Assembly: GCA_022560555.1 (NCBI GenBank)
Contig: JADFSZ010000089.1
Span: 1-7,107, forward strand
DNA from: JADFSZ01 sp022560555 [NCBI: PVC group bacterium]
GTDB taxonomy: Bacteria > GCA-001730085 > JADFSZ01
Direction of reading: 5' to 3'
Length of the DNA stretch: 7,107 bases
Shown: piece after piece, positions 1-7,107 of the stretch
Numbering within the stretch: the first letter of the stretch is position 1
Layout: each line of letters begins with the position of its first letter
Notes under the pieces: generated by a model
Seen by the model: the letters and a program-made list of their open reading frames with translations, nothing else
What the model was told of the DNA's origin: nothing
Databases searched by the model: none
Program-made: the position numbers and the translations under genes

Positions 1-276
1 AGAGCGGTACTTCTTTGTGATGAGGATGTGATCCGGGCCCATCATTTACCGCCATCGCTTCAGACGGCAGAAACAACCCACACGCAATTTCAAAGAAAGG
101 GCCTTGTTCGGTATTTGGACAACATTGAAAAGGAAATGATCATTGAAACCCTTAAAAAGGTCAAGGGGCACCAAAAAAATGCTGCGAAAGAGCTTGATCT
201 CACCGAACGGATGTTGGGGTACAAGATCAAAAAACATAATATTCAATCCCGTCTTTATCGAAAAGCTTCCACATAG
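1..276 (+). CDS. C-terminal part of a NifA/NtrC-type sigma-54 activator
   Basis: The frame is open from the first base, so the 5' part lies outside the window; 91 codons remain before the TAG. Residues 1-20 (RAVLLCDEDVIRAHHLPPSL) match the stretch that follows the AAA+ ATPase domain in sigma-54 enhancer-binding proteins. A linker runs to about residue 37. Residues 38-81 form a Fis-type helix-turn-helix, with GHQKNAAKELDLT followed by the recognition helix ERMLGYKIKKHNI. The wording LTxRxxGYxIKKxxI is closer to NifA than to NtrC, so NifA-like is my best guess, but the sensor domain and the GAFTGA motif are not visible. Proteins of this class bind upstream enhancers and use ATP to open sigma-54 polymerase complexes. 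Three sigma-54 promoters downstream make a local regulatory role plausible, though this is inferred. No terminator is evident after the stop. Confidence 0.88.
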   Translation, partial: RAVLLCDEDVIRAHHLPPSLQTAETTHTQFQRKGLVRYLDNIEKEMIIETLKKVKGHQKNAAKELDLTERMLGYKIKKHNIQSRLYRKAST

Positions 277-290
277 TTTTTTCATCCTAC

Positions 291-306
291 AATTACAAAA
301 ATGTGG
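291..306 (+). promoter_or_regulatory. candidate enhancer (UAS) site 1
   Basis: AATTACAAAAATGTGG carries the core ACA-AAAA-TGT at 295-304. It is centred about 98 bp before the predicted start of the 371-386 sigma-54 promoter, a usual enhancer distance. The same ten-base core recurs exactly at 676, 950 and 1793. It is a single copy here: I found no partner 30-31 bp to either side. The binding protein is inferred, not shown. Confidence 0.5.
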
Positions 307-370
307 TTTTGAGAGACCTGCTGATTTAAGAATTCCATAAATTTCATATTGAGCCCCATATATTTGCGTA

Positions 371-386
371 TGGCATATCGATTGCA
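371..386 (+). promoter_or_regulatory. sigma-54 (-24/-12) promoter, orphan
   Basis: TGGCATATCGATTGCA fits the sigma-54 consensus TGGCAYR-N4-TTGCA at every defined position, with GG and GC exactly 12 bp apart. The predicted transcription start is near 397. No convincing gene follows directly. The transcript would enter 397-760 and, if not terminated, could reach the porin at 939. Candidate UAS site 1 lies upstream. Confidence 0.72.
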
Positions 387-629
387 GAGTTTCAGACAAT
401 CTTTAAGTAGTGATTCTACGCTTTTATGCCATGAAAGGAAATATTGAGAAATCAAAATACATTTATCTTAACGTTTGAGCTTTTAGATGGACATACCTAC
501 TTATTTTGTCTCAATGCCAGCCGGAATATCAATTATAAAATTCCTCAACACTCAGTAATAACCCCCCGGACAACCCGTTCAATGATGTTCAGAGAAGAAC
601 GGACATGGACCCTGAAAAGTTTGTTTGTG
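387..629 (+). other. gene-poor region downstream of the orphan sigma-54 promoter
   Basis: I see no recognisable gene here. The only candidate of any length is a 65-codon frame at 444-641 starting with TTG, with an AAAGGA ribosome-binding sequence at 433-438. Its translation (MRNQNTFILTFELL...) resembles nothing I know. A 15-codon ATG frame starts at 431. Possible RNA folds are weak: GTAG/CTAC near 410-420, and a 6-bp inverted repeat CCGTTC (575-580) / GAACGG (597-602) with no T-run after it. A small RNA, a small protein or simply a long leader are all possible. Confidence 0.35.
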
Positions 630-641
630 AGGGTGTCATAA

Positions 642-659
642 AATTACATAATTGTAATT
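642..659 (+). promoter_or_regulatory. candidate enhancer (UAS) site 2, perfect inverted repeat
   Basis: AATTACA-TAAT-TGTAATT is a perfect 7-bp inverted repeat around a 4-bp spacer, and it contains the ACA-N4-TGT core at 646-655. It is centred about 140 bp before the predicted start of the 765-780 promoter. A partner site follows 30 bp downstream at 676. The symmetry suggests a dimeric DNA-binding protein, as expected for a Fis-type activator. Confidence 0.55.
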
Positions 660-671
660 AATCTATTAAAA

Positions 672-687
672 ATAGACAAAAATGTAA
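672..687 (+). promoter_or_regulatory. candidate enhancer (UAS) site 3
   Basis: ATAGACAAAAATGTAA has the exact core ACAAAAATGT at 676-685. It is 30 bp downstream of the core of site 2, roughly three helical turns, so both would face the same side of the DNA. Its centre is about 110 bp before the predicted start of the porin promoter. A 6-bp inverted repeat, TCTATT/AATAGA (662-676), lies between the two sites. Confidence 0.55.
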
Positions 688-764
688 TTTAATGCCGAAA
701 TTCACCCCGAATAAAAAACACCCTAAGTATTTGAAATGAAAAGAGATAAAATACTTTCTAGCTT

Positions 765-780
765 TGGCATATTGTTTGCG
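765..780 (+). promoter_or_regulatory. sigma-54 (-24/-12) promoter of the porin gene
   Basis: TGGCATATTGTTTGCG matches TGGCAYR-N4-TTGC, with the correct 12-bp GG-to-GC spacing; only the last base departs from the common W. The predicted start is near 791, leaving a leader of about 148 nt before the porin ATG at 939. Two candidate enhancers lie upstream at 642-659 and 672-687. Confidence 0.7.
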
Positions 781-938
781 AAAAGAGTTATTCAAAATTT
801 ATTGGTTTCCCAAAAAATGGCTGACTTTATCAAAGGAGGTGATGATAGCTCGAAGTTATACAAGCAAAGCCCGCCGCTCGGAAAACATCAACAGGAAAAC
901 TTTGCAAACAATGCTTATCCCTTCAAAGGAGAATAACG

Positions 939-1736
939 ATGAATCGATTACAAAAATGTCTTTCAGGCCTATGCTTTGGTGTAGTATTGGTTACTGCTTC
1001 AGACGCTTATGCTCTTGAATTGTCAGAGCAAACCATGGATGTCACAGTCTCCAACGCTTATGTTAGTCAGTATCTTTGGAGAGGTTATGACCTCCATACA
1101 GACAACATGGGCTATCAACCCAGTATAGATCTGACATTCCCGGAGTTGTTCTATGGGATTGATCTTTCCTTAAACTGGTGGGCTTCCTTTCCGTTGTCCA
1201 AAGGGAATGAGACGGCGAAAGAAATAGATTACTCAGTAACGTTATCACGGGATATTATTGATCAAATCAACCTCTCAGCTGGTTGGATTTACTATGATTT
1301 TTTCGTGCAAGATAGCGGGATCGCGGATGTGCACGAATTTTGGGGATCTCTCACATGGACGCTGCCGTTGGATATTTCAACAACAATTTCCACAACAGGA
1401 ACCGCCTATTATGATTTCCCTCATGAAGAATCCGGACCGGAAAACGGATGGTTTTTTGCGTGGAGCATTGATCTCGATACACCTCTGCCGGATTGGGTTG
1501 TTTTCCAGGAAGAACAGACCATCTCATATGGTGTTGTGATCTGGAGCACGGATGGTGTTGCCGGGACAGATCCAGCTTATTTCTATTCCTACGATCTATA
1601 TGCTGCCACAAGTTATACAGTTGGAGAATACGTCACAATCAATCCGAGTGTGCACTATGTTCTAATAAATGAAACGTCCATCAACACCGAAGACGATGAA
1701 TTCTGGACGGGTGTGACTTTGGATGTGGCGTTTTAG
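939..1736 (+). CDS. TorF/Gcw_chp-like putative outer-membrane porin
   Basis: This is a 265-residue exported protein. The ATG at 939 has a good ribosome-binding site (AAAGGAG, 925-931, 7 nt away). Residues 1-25 form a signal peptide: basic MNRLQK, a hydrophobic core, and a likely cut after AYA. The mature part begins with VTVSNAYVSQYLWRGYDL, the kind of opening seen in the TorF/Gcw_chp family of putative porins. It continues with alternating polar and aromatic strands (for example DLSLNWWASF and INLSAGWIYYDFF) and ends TLDVAF, the C-terminal phenylalanine typical of barrels inserted by the BAM machinery. Function is inferred: a small barrel in the outer membrane, substrate unknown. The sigma-54 promoter and the amtB-PII operon next door suggest a role in acquiring nitrogen compounds. 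From memory, TorF-like genes also sit beside glnK-amtB in some betaproteobacteria. No terminator is obvious after the stop. Confidence 0.78.
   Translation: MNRLQKCLSGLCFGVVLVTASDAYALELSEQTMDVTVSNAYVSQYLWRGYDLHTDNMGYQPSIDLTFPELFYGIDLSLNWWASFPLSKGNETAKEIDYSVTLSRDIIDQINLSAGWIYYDFFVQDSGIADVHEFWGSLTWTLPLDISTTISTTGTAYYDFPHEESGPENGWFFAWSIDLDTPLPDWVVFQEEQTISYGVVIWSTDGVAGTDPAYFYSYDLYAATSYTVGEYVTINPSVHYVLINETSINTEDDEFWTGVTLDVAF
946..961 (+). promoter_or_regulatory. intragenic copy of the ACA-AAAA-TGT motif
   Basis: GATTACAAAAATGTCT contains the exact ten-base core at 950-959, within codons 4-7 of the porin. It lies downstream of the porin promoter, about 160 bp past the predicted start. It could be a downstream enhancer or repressing site, or a chance match in the codons for Leu-Gln-Lys-Cys. 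Confidence 0.22.
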
Positions 1737-1757
1737 ACGAGAAGCAGACCCTGAATA

Positions 1758-1773
1758 TAATACGAAAATGTTC
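1758..1773 (+). promoter_or_regulatory. candidate enhancer (UAS) site 5, near-copy
   Basis: TAATACGAAAATGTTC has the core ACGAAAATGT at 1762-1771, one base different from the others. It forms a tandem pair with site 6: ATAC(G/A)AAAATGTT is repeated 31 bp apart in the same orientation. It is centred about 195 bp before the predicted amtB transcription start. Confidence 0.5.
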
Positions 1774-1788
1774 CTAAATAAATCCATA

Positions 1789-1804
1789 AAATACAAAAAT
1801 GTTA
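1789..1804 (+). promoter_or_regulatory. candidate enhancer (UAS) site 6
   Basis: AAATACAAAAATGTTA has the exact core ACAAAAATGT at 1793-1802. It is centred about 164 bp before the predicted amtB start and lies 31 bp downstream of site 5. This mirrors the paired arrangement in front of the porin. Confidence 0.55.
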
Positions 1805-1935
1805 TATTTTAAGATAAAAACTGTTAATAGGGTTTCAAGAACAAAGGATGAAAACGAAGGTGTCATAGAGGTATAAATAGCTGATATGAAAAATGATATG
1901 ACTTTTTCTGAATCAGCGGTCTCTCAAATGATTTT

Positions 1936-1951
1936 TGGTATGTTTGTTGCA
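1936..1951 (+). promoter_or_regulatory. sigma-54 (-24/-12) promoter of the amtB-glnK operon
   Basis: TGGTATGTTTGTTGCA fits the sigma-54 pattern with a strong -12 element (TTGCA) and the correct 12-bp GG-to-GC spacing; the -24 element has T in place of C. The predicted start is near 1962, giving a leader of about 57 nt to the amtB ATG. Sigma-54 control of amtB-glnK is well established in other bacteria. Confidence 0.75.
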
Positions 1952-2018
1952 TTAAGGACAAAGGCGATTCTCGTCCGAAAATCGCATGCTAACAATCACA
2001 ACAAAGGAGGAAAAGAAA

Positions 2019-3341
2019 ATGGTTAAAAAGTTGTTATGCCTTTTCTTTGCAGTCGGATTTGTTCTTGCTCAATCGACTGTTGGTTTTGCCGAAGAAGCAA
2101 GTGTTGCAGCACAGGCGATGTTTACCGTGAATAATACTTGGATGCTGGTAGCGACATTTCTCGTTTTTATCATGCATCTTGGATTCGCGACGCTTGAAGC
2201 AGGCTTAACTCAAGCCAAAAATACCGTCAATATTTTGTTCAAAAATACATCTATCATTGCCATCGGATTGTTGACCTACGCTATTTGTGGCTTTAATCTG
2301 ATGTATCCGGGCGATTTTTCGATAGGACAGTTTTTCGGATTTTCCGGTTTTGGTATCGCAAGCCCTGAAGGAGCTGCGGGCCTGATCGAATATGCGGATG
2401 GGAATTACACGTACTGGACAGACTTTCTGTTTCAGGCGATGTTTGCCGCGACGGCCGCGACGATTGTTTCCGGAGCGGTTGCCGAACGTATCAAACTCTC
2501 AAGTTTTCTTATTTTCACTACCATTTACGTTGGTCTTGTTTATCCGATTGTCGGCAGTTGGAAATGGGGCGGCGGCTGGCTTGACCAAATGGGATTTTAT
2601 GATTTTGCGGGTTCCACCCTTGTGCATTCCGTTGGGGGTTGGGCCGCTCTGGTTGGTGTCATTCTCTTAGGTCCGCGTCTCGGTAAATACTTTAAAGGAG
2701 GGATTCGTCCCATTCTGGGTCATAATCTTCCTTTAGTTACCATTGGTGTGTTTCTCCTTTGGCTAGGATGGTTCGGTTTTAACGGTGGATCCGTTCTTTC
2801 GGCTGATCCCGGACTTGTTTCTCTTGTATTCGTAACAACGAGTTTGGCGGCGGCTGCCGGTATCATCGGCGCCATGATCACAAGCTGGATTGCACAAAAA
2901 AAGCCGGATTTAACAATGATCCTTAACGGATGTTTGGCCGGATTAGTCGGAATTACAGCCGGAGCCGATACGGTTACCGTTTGTTCAGCTGCCATTATTG
3001 GAGGCATTGCCGGTGTGATTGTTGTTTTTTCTGTCATTTTCTTTGATCGCATAAAAATTGATGATCCGGTCGGGGCCATCTCTGTCCACTTAGTTTGTGG
3101 AATTTGGGGAACTCTCGCTGTTGGGATTTTCAGTACAAATCCGGACCATAGCTTTATGACTCAGCTAATCGGTGTTGCCGCGTATGGAGCATTTTGTCTC
3201 GCATCAGCCTTTGCGATTTTCGGTGGTCTTAAAGCTGTTATGGGAATACGCGTCACTGAAATCGAAGAGCGCCAGGGCTTGGATATCTCAGAACACGGAA
3301 TGGAAGCTTATGGTGGTTTTCAGATTTTTACCACACAGTAA
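2019..3341 (+). CDS. amtB: ammonium transporter, Amt family
   Basis: This is a 440-residue inner-membrane channel for ammonium uptake. I choose the ATG at 2019 over the in-frame ATG at 1986 because an excellent ribosome-binding site (AAAGGAGG, 2003-2010) lies 8 nt before it and the protein then begins with a signal peptide. Residues 1-24 (MVKKLLCLFF... to VGFA) look like a cleavable signal peptide, as in E. coli AmtB. About 11 hydrophobic segments follow. Family landmarks are visible: the DFLFQAMFAATAATIVSGAVAE region, DFAGSTLVHSVGG with the conserved Asp195 and first pore histidine His203, and VGAISVHLVCGIWGTLAVG with the second pore histidine His357. The cytoplasmic tail ends EHGMEAYGGF. 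The length is normal for the family. The PII gene 34 bases downstream should encode its regulator: de-uridylylated PII plugs the channel when nitrogen is plentiful. Transcription most likely starts at the sigma-54 promoter at 1936-1951. Confidence 0.97.
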   Translation: MVKKLLCLFFAVGFVLAQSTVGFAEEASVAAQAMFTVNNTWMLVATFLVFIMHLGFATLEAGLTQAKNTVNILFKNTSIIAIGLLTYAICGFNLMYPGDFSIGQFFGFSGFGIASPEGAAGLIEYADGNYTYWTDFLFQAMFAATAATIVSGAVAERIKLSSFLIFTTIYVGLVYPIVGSWKWGGGWLDQMGFYDFAGSTLVHSVGGWAALVGVILLGPRLGKYFKGGIRPILGHNLPLVTIGVFLLWLGWFGFNGGSVLSADPGLVSLVFVTTSLAAAAGIIGAMITSWIAQKKPDLTMILNGCLAGLVGITAGADTVTVCSAAIIGGIAGVIVVFSVIFFDRIKIDDPVGAISVHLVCGIWGTLAVGIFSTNPDHSFMTQLIGVAAYGAFCLASAFAIFGGLKAVMGIRVTEIEERQGLDISEHGMEAYGGFQIFTTQ

Positions 3342-3375: not shown

Positions 3376-3717
3376 ATGAAACTGATCATTGCGTTAATAC
3401 AACCATACAAGCTTTCAGATGTGAAGGAGGCGCTTCGCAGTAACGACATCACGAAGATGACTGTAACAAATGCTCTTGGGTGTGGACAGCAGGCGGGTTA
3501 TGAAGAAGAGTATCGTGGCGTTATCTATGAAGTTAATTTGCTGAAGAAAGTTCGGATTGAAATTGCCGTAACGGATGAATTTGTTCAGAAAACCATTGAT
3601 GCCATCATCCAAGGCGCAAAAACAGGCAAAATCGGTGACGGAAAAATCTTTGTTATGGATTTGACTGATTGTATCCGTATCCGGACAGGAGATCGCGGCG
3701 AAGAAGCGATTGGATAA
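3376..3717 (+). CDS. glnK: PII nitrogen regulatory protein (GlnK-like)
   Basis: This 113-residue PII protein aligns without gaps to the E. coli PII numbering. The T-loop (about residues 37-55, [17 protein letters not shown]) keeps Tyr46 and Tyr51, the latter being the usual uridylylation site. Nucleotide-binding residues are in place: Gln39, the [11 protein letters not shown] loop (Gly87, Gly89, Lys90), and Arg101 and Arg103 in [16 protein letters not shown] trimers sense ATP/ADP and 2-oxoglutarate and bind AmtB and other nitrogen-control proteins. The gene follows amtB by 34 nt, with its own ribosome-binding site (AAGGAG, 3363-3368), and no terminator intervenes, so it is probably co-transcribed from the sigma-54 promoter. 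I use glnK because of the amtB linkage; sequence alone does not cleanly separate GlnK from GlnB. Gene order is amtB then glnK, the reverse of E. coli. Confidence 0.96.
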
Positions 3718-3968: not shown

Positions 3969-4000
3969 GATGGTTATTTTATCCAATGAGAGGATTCCGC

Positions 4001-7000
4001 ATGAGTCTCGTCCCGCAAAAACAAGGTCTTTACGATCCTGCCATGGAGCACGATGCCTGTGGTGTCGGTTTTATTGTCCAGATGGAGGGGAAAAAGTCTC
4101 ACACGATCATTCGTAACGGCCTGACTATCCTTGAAAATCTAGCACACCGCGGTGCCTGCGGATGCGACCCTCTGACGGGTGACGGTGCCGGGATCACAAC
4201 GCAAGTTCCGGACAAATTCCTTCGAAAAGAATGTCAAAAAAACCATATTGTTTTACCGCCCGAAGGGGAATATGGTGTCGGAAATGTTTTTCTGCCTCCC
4301 AATCTTGAAGAGCGTAATGCCTATGAAGAATGGTTCGAGCAAATCATCCATGGAGAAGGACAAAAGTTTTTGGGCTGGCGTGATATCCCGCATGACAGTT
4401 CGCAAATCGGAAAAGTTGCCCATTCCGTCGAACCTGAATTCCGGCAGATTTTTATCCAAAAAGACAGCGGTATTAAAGATCAAGATGCTTTTGAGCGCAA
4501 ACTTTATGTCATCCGAAAACTGATTGAAAAGAAAGTCTGGAATTCACATTTTTCTCAACAAAGTTACTTTCATATCGCGAGCCTTTCGACTAGGACACTT
4601 GTCTATAAGGGCCAGCTTATGAGCGATCAGCTGGACCGGTTTTATCTCGATCTTCGGGATGAATCGTTCGAATCCTGTTTGGCGATGGTTCATTCGAGAT
4701 ATAGCACAAACACGTTTCCTTCATGGCCTCTCGCTCATCCGTACCGCATGCTGAGTCATAACGGTGAAATCAATACCCTGCGCGGAAACATCAATTGGTC
4801 TCACGCGAGAGAAATGCTCTATAAAAGCGAACTGTTCGGTGATGATATTCATAAAATTCATCCTATTATCCAACCGGGCGGAAGTGATTCGGCTGCATTT
4901 GACAATGTGCTCGAGATGCTTGTCTTAACGGGACGCTCGTTGCCGCACGCGGTGATGATGATGATCCCCGAAGCCTGGAGCGGACACACCTCGATGGATG
5001 AAGACAAAAGAGCTTTTTATGAATACCATGCGTGTCTCATGGAGCCATGGGACGGTCCCGCGTCCATTGCTTTTACCGACGGCCGTTACATCGGAGCCGT
5101 TTTAGATCGAAATGGTTTACGGCCATCGCGTTATTATGTGACTAAAGATCATTATGTCATTATGGCCTCTGAAGCCGGTGTTTTAGAAATTCCTCCTAAT
5201 AACGTGCTTTTGAAGGGACGTTTACAGCCGGGAAAAATGTTCCTTGTCGATACCAACGAAGGCCGGATTATTGATGACACAGAGCTGAAGCGTTCTTACG
5301 CGACGAAAAAACCCTATAAAGAATGGCTTAAAGAGAACCTGGTTCATATTGATGAGCTGCCAAAACCAAAACGTGTTTTAGGACTCGATAAGGACCGTCT
5401 GCTCGAGCGTCAACAGGCATTCGGATATACGTTGGAAGATCTGAAGCTTATTCTGAAACCCATGGTGGAAGAAGGAAAAGAAGCCACGGGAAGCATGGGA
5501 AATGACGCGCCTTTGGCCGTCCTGTCGAATAAACCCCAGCTTCTCTATAACTATTTCAAACAATTATTCGCGCAAGTGACAAATCCTCCCGTGGACGCGA
5601 TTCGCGAAGAAATCATTATGGGGCCGGAAATGTTTCTGGGAGCGGAAGGTAATCAGCTCGATGAGGTTCCTGAACATTGCCGTCGTTTGAAAATCAATGA
5701 ACCTATCATTTCAAATGAAGATCTTGAAAAAATCCGTGAATTTAATGAAGCCGGACTAACATCTGATACTCTCAAAACAATTTTTCTTAAAAAAGACGGA
5801 GTCAAGGGTTTGGAAGTCTCTCTGGAAAATCTTTTTGGCCAAGCCGATCAAGCGATCAAAAAAGGACACACGCTTCTCATCTTGTCTGATCGGGATGTCA
5901 GTCAAGATCATGTCCCCATGCCCGCGCTTCTGGCTTGTTCCGGACTGCATCATCACCTGATACGTAACGGGAAGCGCACAAAAGTCAGTCTGATAATAGA
6001 GACGGGTGAAGCAAGAGAAATGCACCAATTCGCGCTTCTTATCGGATATGGGGCCAATGCAGTTAATCCATATCTCGCGTTTGAAACTATTCAGTATGAA
6101 ATTGAGCACGGAGATTTTGATCCGAATCTGGCCTTTGATAAAGCCGTTACCAATTACATCAAGGCCACACGTATAGGCCTCTACAAAATTATTTCAAAGA
6201 TGGGAATTTCCACGATTCAATCTTATTGCGGGGCGCAGATTTTTGAAGCGGTTGGTTTGGGAGATGAATTAGTGGAGAAATATTTCACGGCCACACCTTC
6301 CCGTATCGGAGGCATCGGAATCGAAACTTTGGCCGAAGAAATGTTAGCTCGTCACCGACGGGCTTATCCGCCGGCAGATACAGACCAATATGAATATAAA
6401 GAACTGGATATCGGAGGACATTATTATTGGCGACGTGAGGGTGAATTTCATCAAATCAACCCTCAAATGATTGCTCTTTTACAGCACGCGACACGGTCAG
6501 GAGACAGCAGTATGTATAAAAAATACGCGTCCTTAGTCAATGATCAGAGTAAAAACCGGGCGACTTTAAGAGGATTGCTAAAATTTAAAAAGGGGAATTC
6601 CATCCCGATAAACGATGTTGAACCCGCGAAAGAAATTGTGAAACGTTTCGCGACGGGCGCCATGTCCTACGGCTCGATCTCAAAAGAAGCGCATGAAACA
6701 CTCGCTATTGCCATGAATCGTATGGGAGGATTTTCCAATACGGGAGAAGGCGGTGAAGATCCTGATCGATTTCAACCTGATTCAAACGGAGATCTTCGGC
6801 GAAGCCGTATCAAACAGGTGGCTCAAGGACGGTTCGGGGTCACGATTGAATACCTTGTGAACGCGGATCAGCTTCAAATTAAAATGGCTCAAGGGGCCAA
6901 GCCGGGTGAAGGCGGACAGCTTCCGGGGTATAAAGTTAGCAAGGAGATCGCCAAAACGCGTTCCACGACTCCCGGGGTCGGTTTGATCTCCCCGCCGCCG

Positions 7001-7107
7001 CATCACGATATCTATTCGATTGAAGATCTCGCGCAATTGATTCATGATCTAAAAAATGCAAATCGTTTTGCCGATGTCAGCGTAAAACTTGTTGCCGAAT
7101 TCGGCGT
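4001..7107 (+). CDS. gltB: glutamate synthase large subunit, 5' part
   Basis: The frame is open from the ATG at 4001 to the window edge (1035 codons plus 2 bases). The ribosome-binding site GAGAGG (3988-3993) is 7 nt before it. GltB uses glutamine and 2-oxoglutarate to make two glutamates. The precursor starts with a 19-residue propeptide; cleavage would expose Cys20 (EHDACGVGF) as the N-terminal nucleophile of the class II glutamine amidotransferase domain (about 20-430). Further landmarks of that domain are [28 protein letters not shown] (231-240), [11 protein letters not shown] (253-263) and [10 protein letters not shown] (293-302). The central domain includes [13 protein letters not shown] from 497. 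The FMN/synthase domain begins with GAMSYGSIS (886-894) and [10 protein letters not shown] (967-976). The 3Fe-4S cysteines, the C-terminal beta-helix and any gltD lie beyond the window. The full protein is usually about 1500 residues, so roughly a third is missing. It is separated from the PII operon by a terminator. Confidence 0.97.

Follow-up and report, generated by a model that had tools for sequence, protein, structure and literature searches.

Activators of the sigma-54 polymerase bind paired dyads as dimers and form an AAA+ ring that contacts the polymerase through DNA looping. The upstream activating sequence (UAS) of NifA is TGT-N10-ACA, and in some NifA proteins sensing involves PII; at E. 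coli glnAp2, NtrC has paired sites near -108 and -140. We analyzed a 7,107-nucleotide stretch (hereafter the window) of the PVC group bacterium JADFSZ01 sp022560555, in which pairs of another dyad, ACA-N4-TGT, were found upstream of -24/-12 (sigma-54) promoter matches of a porin gene and of amtB. It is highly likely that such pairs, in the longer form CTACA-N4-TGTAG, serve as the sigma-54 enhancer of a NifA-like activator of nitrogen assimilation with GAF, AAA+ and Fis-type helix-turn-helix (HTH) domains. A full-length paralogue of the activator whose gene end lies in the window is encoded on another contig of this genome (C200:1099-2646, minus strand) and is called the C200 protein below.

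The C200 protein and NifA have the GAF-AAA+-Fis HTH architecture in common. Their operators differ (ACA-N4-TGT here), and the sole TGT-N10-ACA of the window, at 1945, overlapped the -12 element of amtB. The neighbors seen here, in an analysis that included no search aimed at nif, were amtB, PII, glnA and porin genes. The NifA model TIGR01817 aligned to the C200 protein to residue 443 only, stopping before the HTH, whereas it aligned to a Desulfovibrio NifA nearly to the end (529 of 534). The porin pair of the window, at -110.5 and -140.5, resembled glnAp2 in geometry, with dyads about three turns apart, and in its nitrogen-gene neighbors. However, the C200 protein is a one-component GAF protein without a receiver, and its operator is unlike GCAC...GTGC, the only window match to which (at 4142) fell within gltB. 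The solved sequence closest to the C200 protein was 9qq6, a Nif-specific regulatory protein. Domains 4g3k and 4g3v of Aquifex aeolicus Nlh1/Nlh2 were among the solved relatives of its GAF domain, and the nearest solved relative of its HTH was 2m8g (E=2.8e-05); Nlh1, Nlh2 and 2m8g are Aquifex proteins.

Two published regulators are also close in kind. In the accessible portions of a comparative study (Kazakov et al. 2015, PMC4641369), DVU1949 of Desulfovibrio vulgaris is a single-component regulator with nine predicted operons in nitrogen metabolism and transport; it stands behind genes of the iorA-iorB kind in several genomes. The study describes the regulon in Desulfovibrionales and mentions three motif groups with TGT and ACA 9, 11 or 12 bp apart. 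EbpA of Leptospira, according to excerpts of its description, has two putative GAF domains, binds upstream of amtB and acts together with RpoN when nitrogen is limiting (PMC12655853). It thus resembles the present case as an activator with GAF domains acting upstream of amtB; those excerpts, from a review, call it FhlA-like and give no operator sequence for it, and the likeness is one of description only (PMC12655853).

Operator sites in the window and the genome

All ACA-N4-TGT dyads in the 7,107 bases were at 295, 646, 676, 950 and 1793. The exact ten-mer ACAAAAATGT was seen three times against 0.0145 expected in the two intergenic segments (277-938 and 1737-2021), where the dyad was seen four times against 0.22 expected; neither count was reached in 2000 dinucleotide shuffles. 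Matches with up to two mismatches numbered 22 across the window, compared with 14.1 +/- 3.6 in shuffles, and 5 of 200 shuffles reached 22. Because matches with two mismatches are common in shuffles, the near-copies at 646 and 1762 count by location alone. The paired sites were in helical phase, with periods of 30 bp (porin) and 31 bp (amtB), and the dyads lay upstream of -24/-12 promoter matches, as is expected of sigma-54 enhancers (UAS).

A preliminary description of this DNA had listed exact copies at 295, 676, 950 and 1793 on the plus strand, near-copies at 646 and 1762, the two pairs with their periods, and a single copy before the promoter at 371. All of these were found, and the centers it gave agreed with those computed here (Table 1), which are counted from -24/-12 sequence matches and not from mapped starts. 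Of its four exact copies, those at 295, 676 and 1793 are intergenic and stood as elements. The copy at 950-959 was rejected as an operator; it is coding, inside the porin open reading frame (ORF; 939-1736) and 185 bp past the porin promoter.

Across the genome, 14 of the 21 exact copies were in ORFs and seven were intergenic. Thirteen of the ORF copies were more than 400 bp from any strict -24/-12 match, the remaining one being the copy at 950. Seven of the ORFs concerned had clear Pfam matches and two had weak family matches (on C51, and the porin); those of four copies (C50, C131, C135 and C187; 441-724 aa) were judged by length alone, and the coding status of the 143-aa ORF on C53, without a Pfam match, is unproven. 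Six of the seven intergenic copies were ahead of a -24/-12 match and the seventh was ahead of the C200 activator gene, which speaks against the concern, raised in the preliminary description, that the motif might be equally frequent away from sigma-54 promoters. The six promoter-linked copies were those at 295, 676 and 1793, two copies with a 31-bp period on contig C182, and a copy on C200 with the partner ACATAAATGA 30 bp upstream.

Strict -24/-12 matches numbered 38 in the genome against 22 for the reversed control, and five had an exact ten-mer upstream. Two others may mark further members of the regulon. One (C182:12697-12711, locus L267), with the dyad AACAATATTGTT at -139, was between a ureG-type gene and a porin-like remnant; the other (C146:4107-4121, L262), with TACACAGATGTA at -94, preceded an ORF of 168 aa that matched no Pfam family. 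A match at C49:6843 had a dyad at -221 and was itself inside an ORF. The remaining strict matches had no dyad within 260 bp, and many of the 38 are likely to be chance matches or to belong to other activators.

Tandem sites in other genomes

In an AmtB search of 59 genomes, the genome studied here was alone in its family and one other belonged to its phylum. Conservation, on which the preliminary description had let its proposal depend, was seen in a genome of a different phylum (G045), where two pairs with 30-bp periods were upstream of glnK-amtB. The last site was 88 bp from the -24/-12 match there, compared with 89 bp at the porin promoter of the window.

A scan for tandems with a 30-31 bp period in contigs of many genomes, counting overlapping copies within 100 bp once, returned at least 115 tandems in at least 113 stretches. 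At least 50 were within 2 kb of a homolog of AmtB, PII, GlnA or the activator. At least 32 had a strict -24/-12 match at a distance of 55-185 bp, where about 1 was expected from same-locus control windows (10/2200 per side). Among the matches listed, 25 tandems had both a gene neighbor and a promoter match and 57 had either, and the promoter distance was 77-94 bp in 22 of the 32 promoter-linked tandems. Flanking bases that were not part of the search were scored at 57 sites: T preceded the core in 37-38 and A followed it in 42-46, while the outer C and G were present in fewer than half. Because the flanks outside the searched core were symmetric, the dyad is longer than the core, approximately CTACA-N4-TGTAG. 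Pairs beside amtB, PII, glnA or the activator gene occurred in records whose titles name nine other phyla, in addition to Desulfobacterota.

The period was then left free (gaps of 8-38 bp, giving 31 possible periods), with the reversed pattern as control. In 82 genomes of the phylum of G045, 15 matches in 12 genomes were obtained against 1 for the control. The phylum of G160, a genome with a seed locus titled Desulfobacteraceae, contributed 395 genomes and 21 matches (one being the seed) against 1; no match was found in the three genomes of the phylum of G025. A period of 30-31 bp occurred in 13 of the 35 unseeded matches, where 2.3 would be expected if all periods were equal (binomial p=1.3e-7, related genomes not being independent in this or the following tests). 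A nitrogen gene (amtB, PII or glnA), an activator gene or a -24/-12 match was nearby in 13/13 matches at 30-31 bp vs 12/22 of the others (Fisher p=0.005), by criteria looser than those of the tandem scan. With a range of 29-33 bp, set after seeing the data, the corresponding values were 23/35 (p=6.7e-11) for period and 23/23 vs 2/12 (p=3.6e-7) for context; 19 of these 23 had a gene neighbor and four had a promoter match alone. The 82-genome survey held 11 distinct matches with periods of 29-30 bp, loci L189 and L201 being the same two tandems of G066. In the 38 genomes with tandem loci, the free-gap pattern returned 42 matches, 40 of them seeds, with periods all of 29-31 bp and none for the control.

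Among the 12 matches outside 29-33 bp, three came from G128 and G129 and are near-copies of a single repeat. These near-identical stretches of 48 bp (L198, L199 and L203), of the form ACATTTATGT...ACATTTATGT with a 38-bp period, occurred in three places without a nitrogen neighbor and look like a dispersed repeat.

The activator and its clade

By Pfam, the C200 protein contained GAF, Sigma54_activat, AAA_lid_14 and HTH_8 domains and no receiver domain. It passed the NifA model TIGR01817 (548.1 against a cut-off of 528.85), which five of eight further clade members also passed and three failed, and it scored 344.6 bits with the ntrC model TIGR01818, below the cut-off of 558.6. Recognition helices of the tandem-associated proteins were alike though not uniform, and differed from those of the other activators of this genome; T-E-R-I-L-G-Y-K-I was common, and several spirochaete records had T-E-R-Q-M-G-x-R-V.

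A tree was built from the last 345 residues of 61 activators, omitting those aligned over <300 aa or carrying an in-frame stop (e.g., L116, L121, L143 and L021 of this genome). Twenty tandem-adjacent activators and 24 others fell on one side of a single branch (100/99). Outside this clade were six other activators of the present genome and the NifA of Desulfovibrio sp. A2 (L240), which scored above the nifA cut-off in an alignment that included its HTH. By record title or assignment, the 44 rows of the clade came from Planctomycetota, Lentisphaerota, Kiritimatiellota, Latescibacterota, Gemmatimonadota, Spirochaetota, Acidobacteriota, Caldisericota, KSB1 and Fidelibacterota, and from Desulfobacterota genomes. 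Tandem adjacency was scattered inside the clade (14 changes), because many rows are a gene fetched twice or have their tandem elsewhere in the genome.

The operator might be genuine and yet be bound by another regulator, such as one of this genome's sigma-54 activators of the response-regulator type, with the NifA-like gene as a mere neighbor. Adjacency is no proof of binding, the genome had nine strong PF00158 matches of which the C200 protein is one, and in five Desulfobacterota-type genomes (G160, G162, G166, G175 and G177) the tandem was on a different contig from the activator gene. However, all five genomes contained a full-length relative with 50-52% identity, and three of them had ACA-N4-TGT 66-85 bp upstream of the relative's first aligned residue. 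None of the seven other activators of this genome that were scanned reached the NCBI ntrC cut-off, and the tandem-adjacent activators of the tree form one clade. We therefore regard this explanation as improbable.

It is less probable still that the protein mainly represses sigma-70 promoters through these sites, the -24/-12 matches being incidental. This explanation draws on the position of sites before the activator genes. At the C200 gene, an exact copy (C200:2704-2713) was 67 bp before the start codon and TCAAAAATGT followed 30 bp downstream, 37 bp before the start (L017:2646-2713); the exact copy is between glnA and the activator gene, and the ORF overlapping it is antisense. This pair suggests autoregulation. 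A dyad was present in the 300 bp leading up to the projected start of 21 of 27 activator genes and absent from six, though many of these loci had been chosen for their tandem; the dyads in loci not so chosen include those of G045, L089, L099 and three Desulfobacterota-type relatives. Against general repression stand the strict -24/-12 matches at tandems, at least 32 where about 1 was expected and 22 of 32 at 77-94 bp, and the Sigma54_activat domain of the protein itself. Chance A-tracts, or DNA-bending or IHF-like looping aids without a specific activator, are the least credible explanation, since, for all the A/T-rich core and the narrow margin over the reversed ten-mer, tandems with a promoter match or nitrogen neighbor were found in loci of GC up to 0.72, the flanks are symmetric and the period predicts gene context.

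Limits of the distribution

Several observations weigh against the enhancer interpretation. In bulk the ten-mer was not enriched, the 21 genomic copies comparing with 17 of the reversed control; bulk enrichment was dropped as a test, the signal being carried by position and not by number. The promoter at 371 had a single site only. Homology gave 29 further amtB loci, each from a different genome and a single one from the same phylum. A dyad with an A/T-rich center before a -24/-12 match in the right order was found only at that of G045; because this was the sole match, the element is not universal. In G015 (L061:10418-13200) the activator-porin-amtB order was kept with a degenerate site only. 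Of the at least 115 tandems, 58 had neither a listed neighbor nor a strict promoter match; we take many of these to be chance, which is unproven. Finally, any strict pair was present in only 12 of 82 and 21 of 395 genomes of the two surveys. Weighing these points with the positional evidence, we consider that the element is very probably a phylogenetically broad and genuine sigma-54 enhancer, a variant on a known theme and a moderate surprise.

The G015 activator had a changed recognition helix, TERVMGLRVRK. From the sequences, it is possible that operator and helix co-evolve there.

The segment 371-640 of the window combines a good -24/-12 match and one operator with about 250 bp in which no gene is obvious, up to the next sites. 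The 371 promoter could drive a small RNA or give the porin mRNA a long leader; Rfam returned 0 matches in the window.

Proposed mechanism

The element would be bound by the one-component NifA-like enhancer-binding protein (GAF, AAA+ and Fis-type HTH) whose gene adjoins it. Each site would be a dyad of 12-14 bp, approximately CTACA-N4-TGTAG, accommodating one HTH dimer. Two sites 30-31 bp apart, or three turns, would place two dimers on the same DNA face and nucleate the AAA+ ring, which would loop the DNA to reach the -24/-12 promoter, some 75-145 bp further downstream, and open the sigma-54 polymerase. With amtB-PII and porins as targets, the regulon is presumably active under nitrogen scarcity. 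We infer that nitrogen would be sensed through the GAF domain, perhaps with PII, and that the C200 activator would control itself through the pair before its start codon, probably by repression.

Gene context of the window

The window is the entire contig C59 of a 1.66-Mb genome in 222 contigs, 91.5% complete (Table 1). It starts inside the activator gene, within a duplicated part; the fragment was 95% identical to the C200 protein over 88 aa and 96.7% identical to its gene over 241 bp of DNA. The C200 gene itself is after glnA and before a Porin_O_P-like gene. No Pfam match was obtained for the porin ORF of the window. The amtB start is likely at 2019, judging from an AGGAGG-like site before it, and no ACA-N4-TGT was found on the 5' side of gltB among the dyads of the window.

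The end of C182 (C182:13093-13349, L015:4094-4350) was 90% identical over 258 bp to the amtB promoter region of the window (1755-2012). This duplicate follows ureC, ureF, the ureG-type GTPase gene and the apparent porin remnant. The start of C59 and the end of C182 are contig ends because the DNA there is duplicated; a second amtB may have been collapsed in the assembly, with C182 stopping at the duplicated DNA.

Table 1. Operators, promoter matches and genes of the window; centers are given relative to starts predicted from the -24/-12 sequence matches.
Feature	Sequence	Positions	Strand	Remarks
NifA-like sigma-54 activator, C-terminal 91 aa (AAA+ end, Fis-type HTH)		1..276	+	Pfam HTH_8 1.2e-11
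Single operator copy for the 371 promoter	ACAAAAATGT	295..304	+	Center -97.5
-24/-12 (sigma-54) promoter match	TGGCATATCGATTGC	371..385	+	Sequence match
Distal operator of the porin pair	ACATAATTGT (TACATAATTGTA)	646..655	+	Two mismatches; center -140.5
Proximal operator of the porin pair	ACAAAAATGT	676..685	+	Center -110.5; 30-bp period to 646
-24/-12 promoter match of the porin gene	TGGCATATTGTTTGC	765..779	+	Sequence match
Putative outer-membrane porin, TorF/Gcw_chp-like		939..1736	+	Weak TIGR02001 match, E=3e-05, 23.7 bits, cut-off 47.15
Distal operator of the amtB pair	ACGAAAATGT	1762..1771	+	One mismatch; center -195.5; the C182 duplicate has ACAAAAATGT here
Proximal operator of the amtB pair	ACAAAAATGT	1793..1802	+	Center -164.5; 31-bp period to 1762
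-24/-12 promoter match of amtB	TGGTATGTTTGTTGC	1936..1950	+	Sequence match
amtB, ammonium transporter		1986..3341	+	Pfam Ammonium_transp 4.6e-116
PII signaling protein, glnK/glnB type		3376..3717	+	Pfam P-II 1.6e-28
gltB, glutamate synthase large subunit		3986..7105	+	Pfam GATase_2, Glu_syn_central, Glu_synthase; continues past the window end

Relation to published regulators

The best match to the C200 protein in Desulfovibrio sp. A2 (44-45% identity) was encoded after POR/TPP-enzyme genes of the iorA-iorB kind and fell inside the clade on a long branch. As far as the accessible text on DVU1949 allows, it is probably the DVU1949 orthologue and a distant relative of the C200 activator. The same genome had ACA-N4-TGT-like sites in two places: ACATTTCTGT was 52-61 bp before a TPR gene, the first in the run that leads to the probable orthologue, and upstream of amtB ACAATTATGT was at about 505 bp and ACAATTATGA at about 243 bp. 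The motif published for DVU1949 may, on those portions of the study, be the ACA-N4-TGT operator.

A literature search for the ten-mer or dyad together with nitrogen or sigma-54 returned no pairing among the matches listed, the motif strings occurring only in one malaria paper. Accessible portions of PMC12316311 and PMC2725144 contained nothing on the ACA-N4-TGT motif. No other paper pairing the dyad with a sigma-54 activator and no paper with the word Nlh2 was among the matches listed, in a search covering few subscription papers.

The proposal of the preliminary description that these sites are paired enhancers of a sigma-54 activator is supported by the promoter-linked intergenic copies and the cross-phylum pairs. 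Its statement that they are neither of the NifA type nor of the NtrC type also held in the window, where those patterns were present only on a -12 element and in gltB, respectively. Calling the operator undescribed is uncertain, because the probable orthologue of DVU1949, for which the Desulfovibrio study predicted a nitrogen regulon in the portions available (PMC4641369), is a distant relative of the C200 activator.

Implications

On balance, we lean toward a broader view in which the orthologous one-component NifA-like activator and its tandem operator would be the NtrC-equivalent master regulator of nitrogen in many non-proteobacterial phyla and in Desulfobacterota. Many proteins annotated as nif-specific NifA would then be this regulator, and the nif-specific NifA may be an offshoot with a changed operator. 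For phyla distant from the usual models, the analysis provides a nitrogen-control operator together with a clade of regulators and a regulon that can be tested. An automatic 'NifA' annotation need not mean nitrogen fixation, and with so narrow a spacing rule the regulon is easy to seek in any genome.

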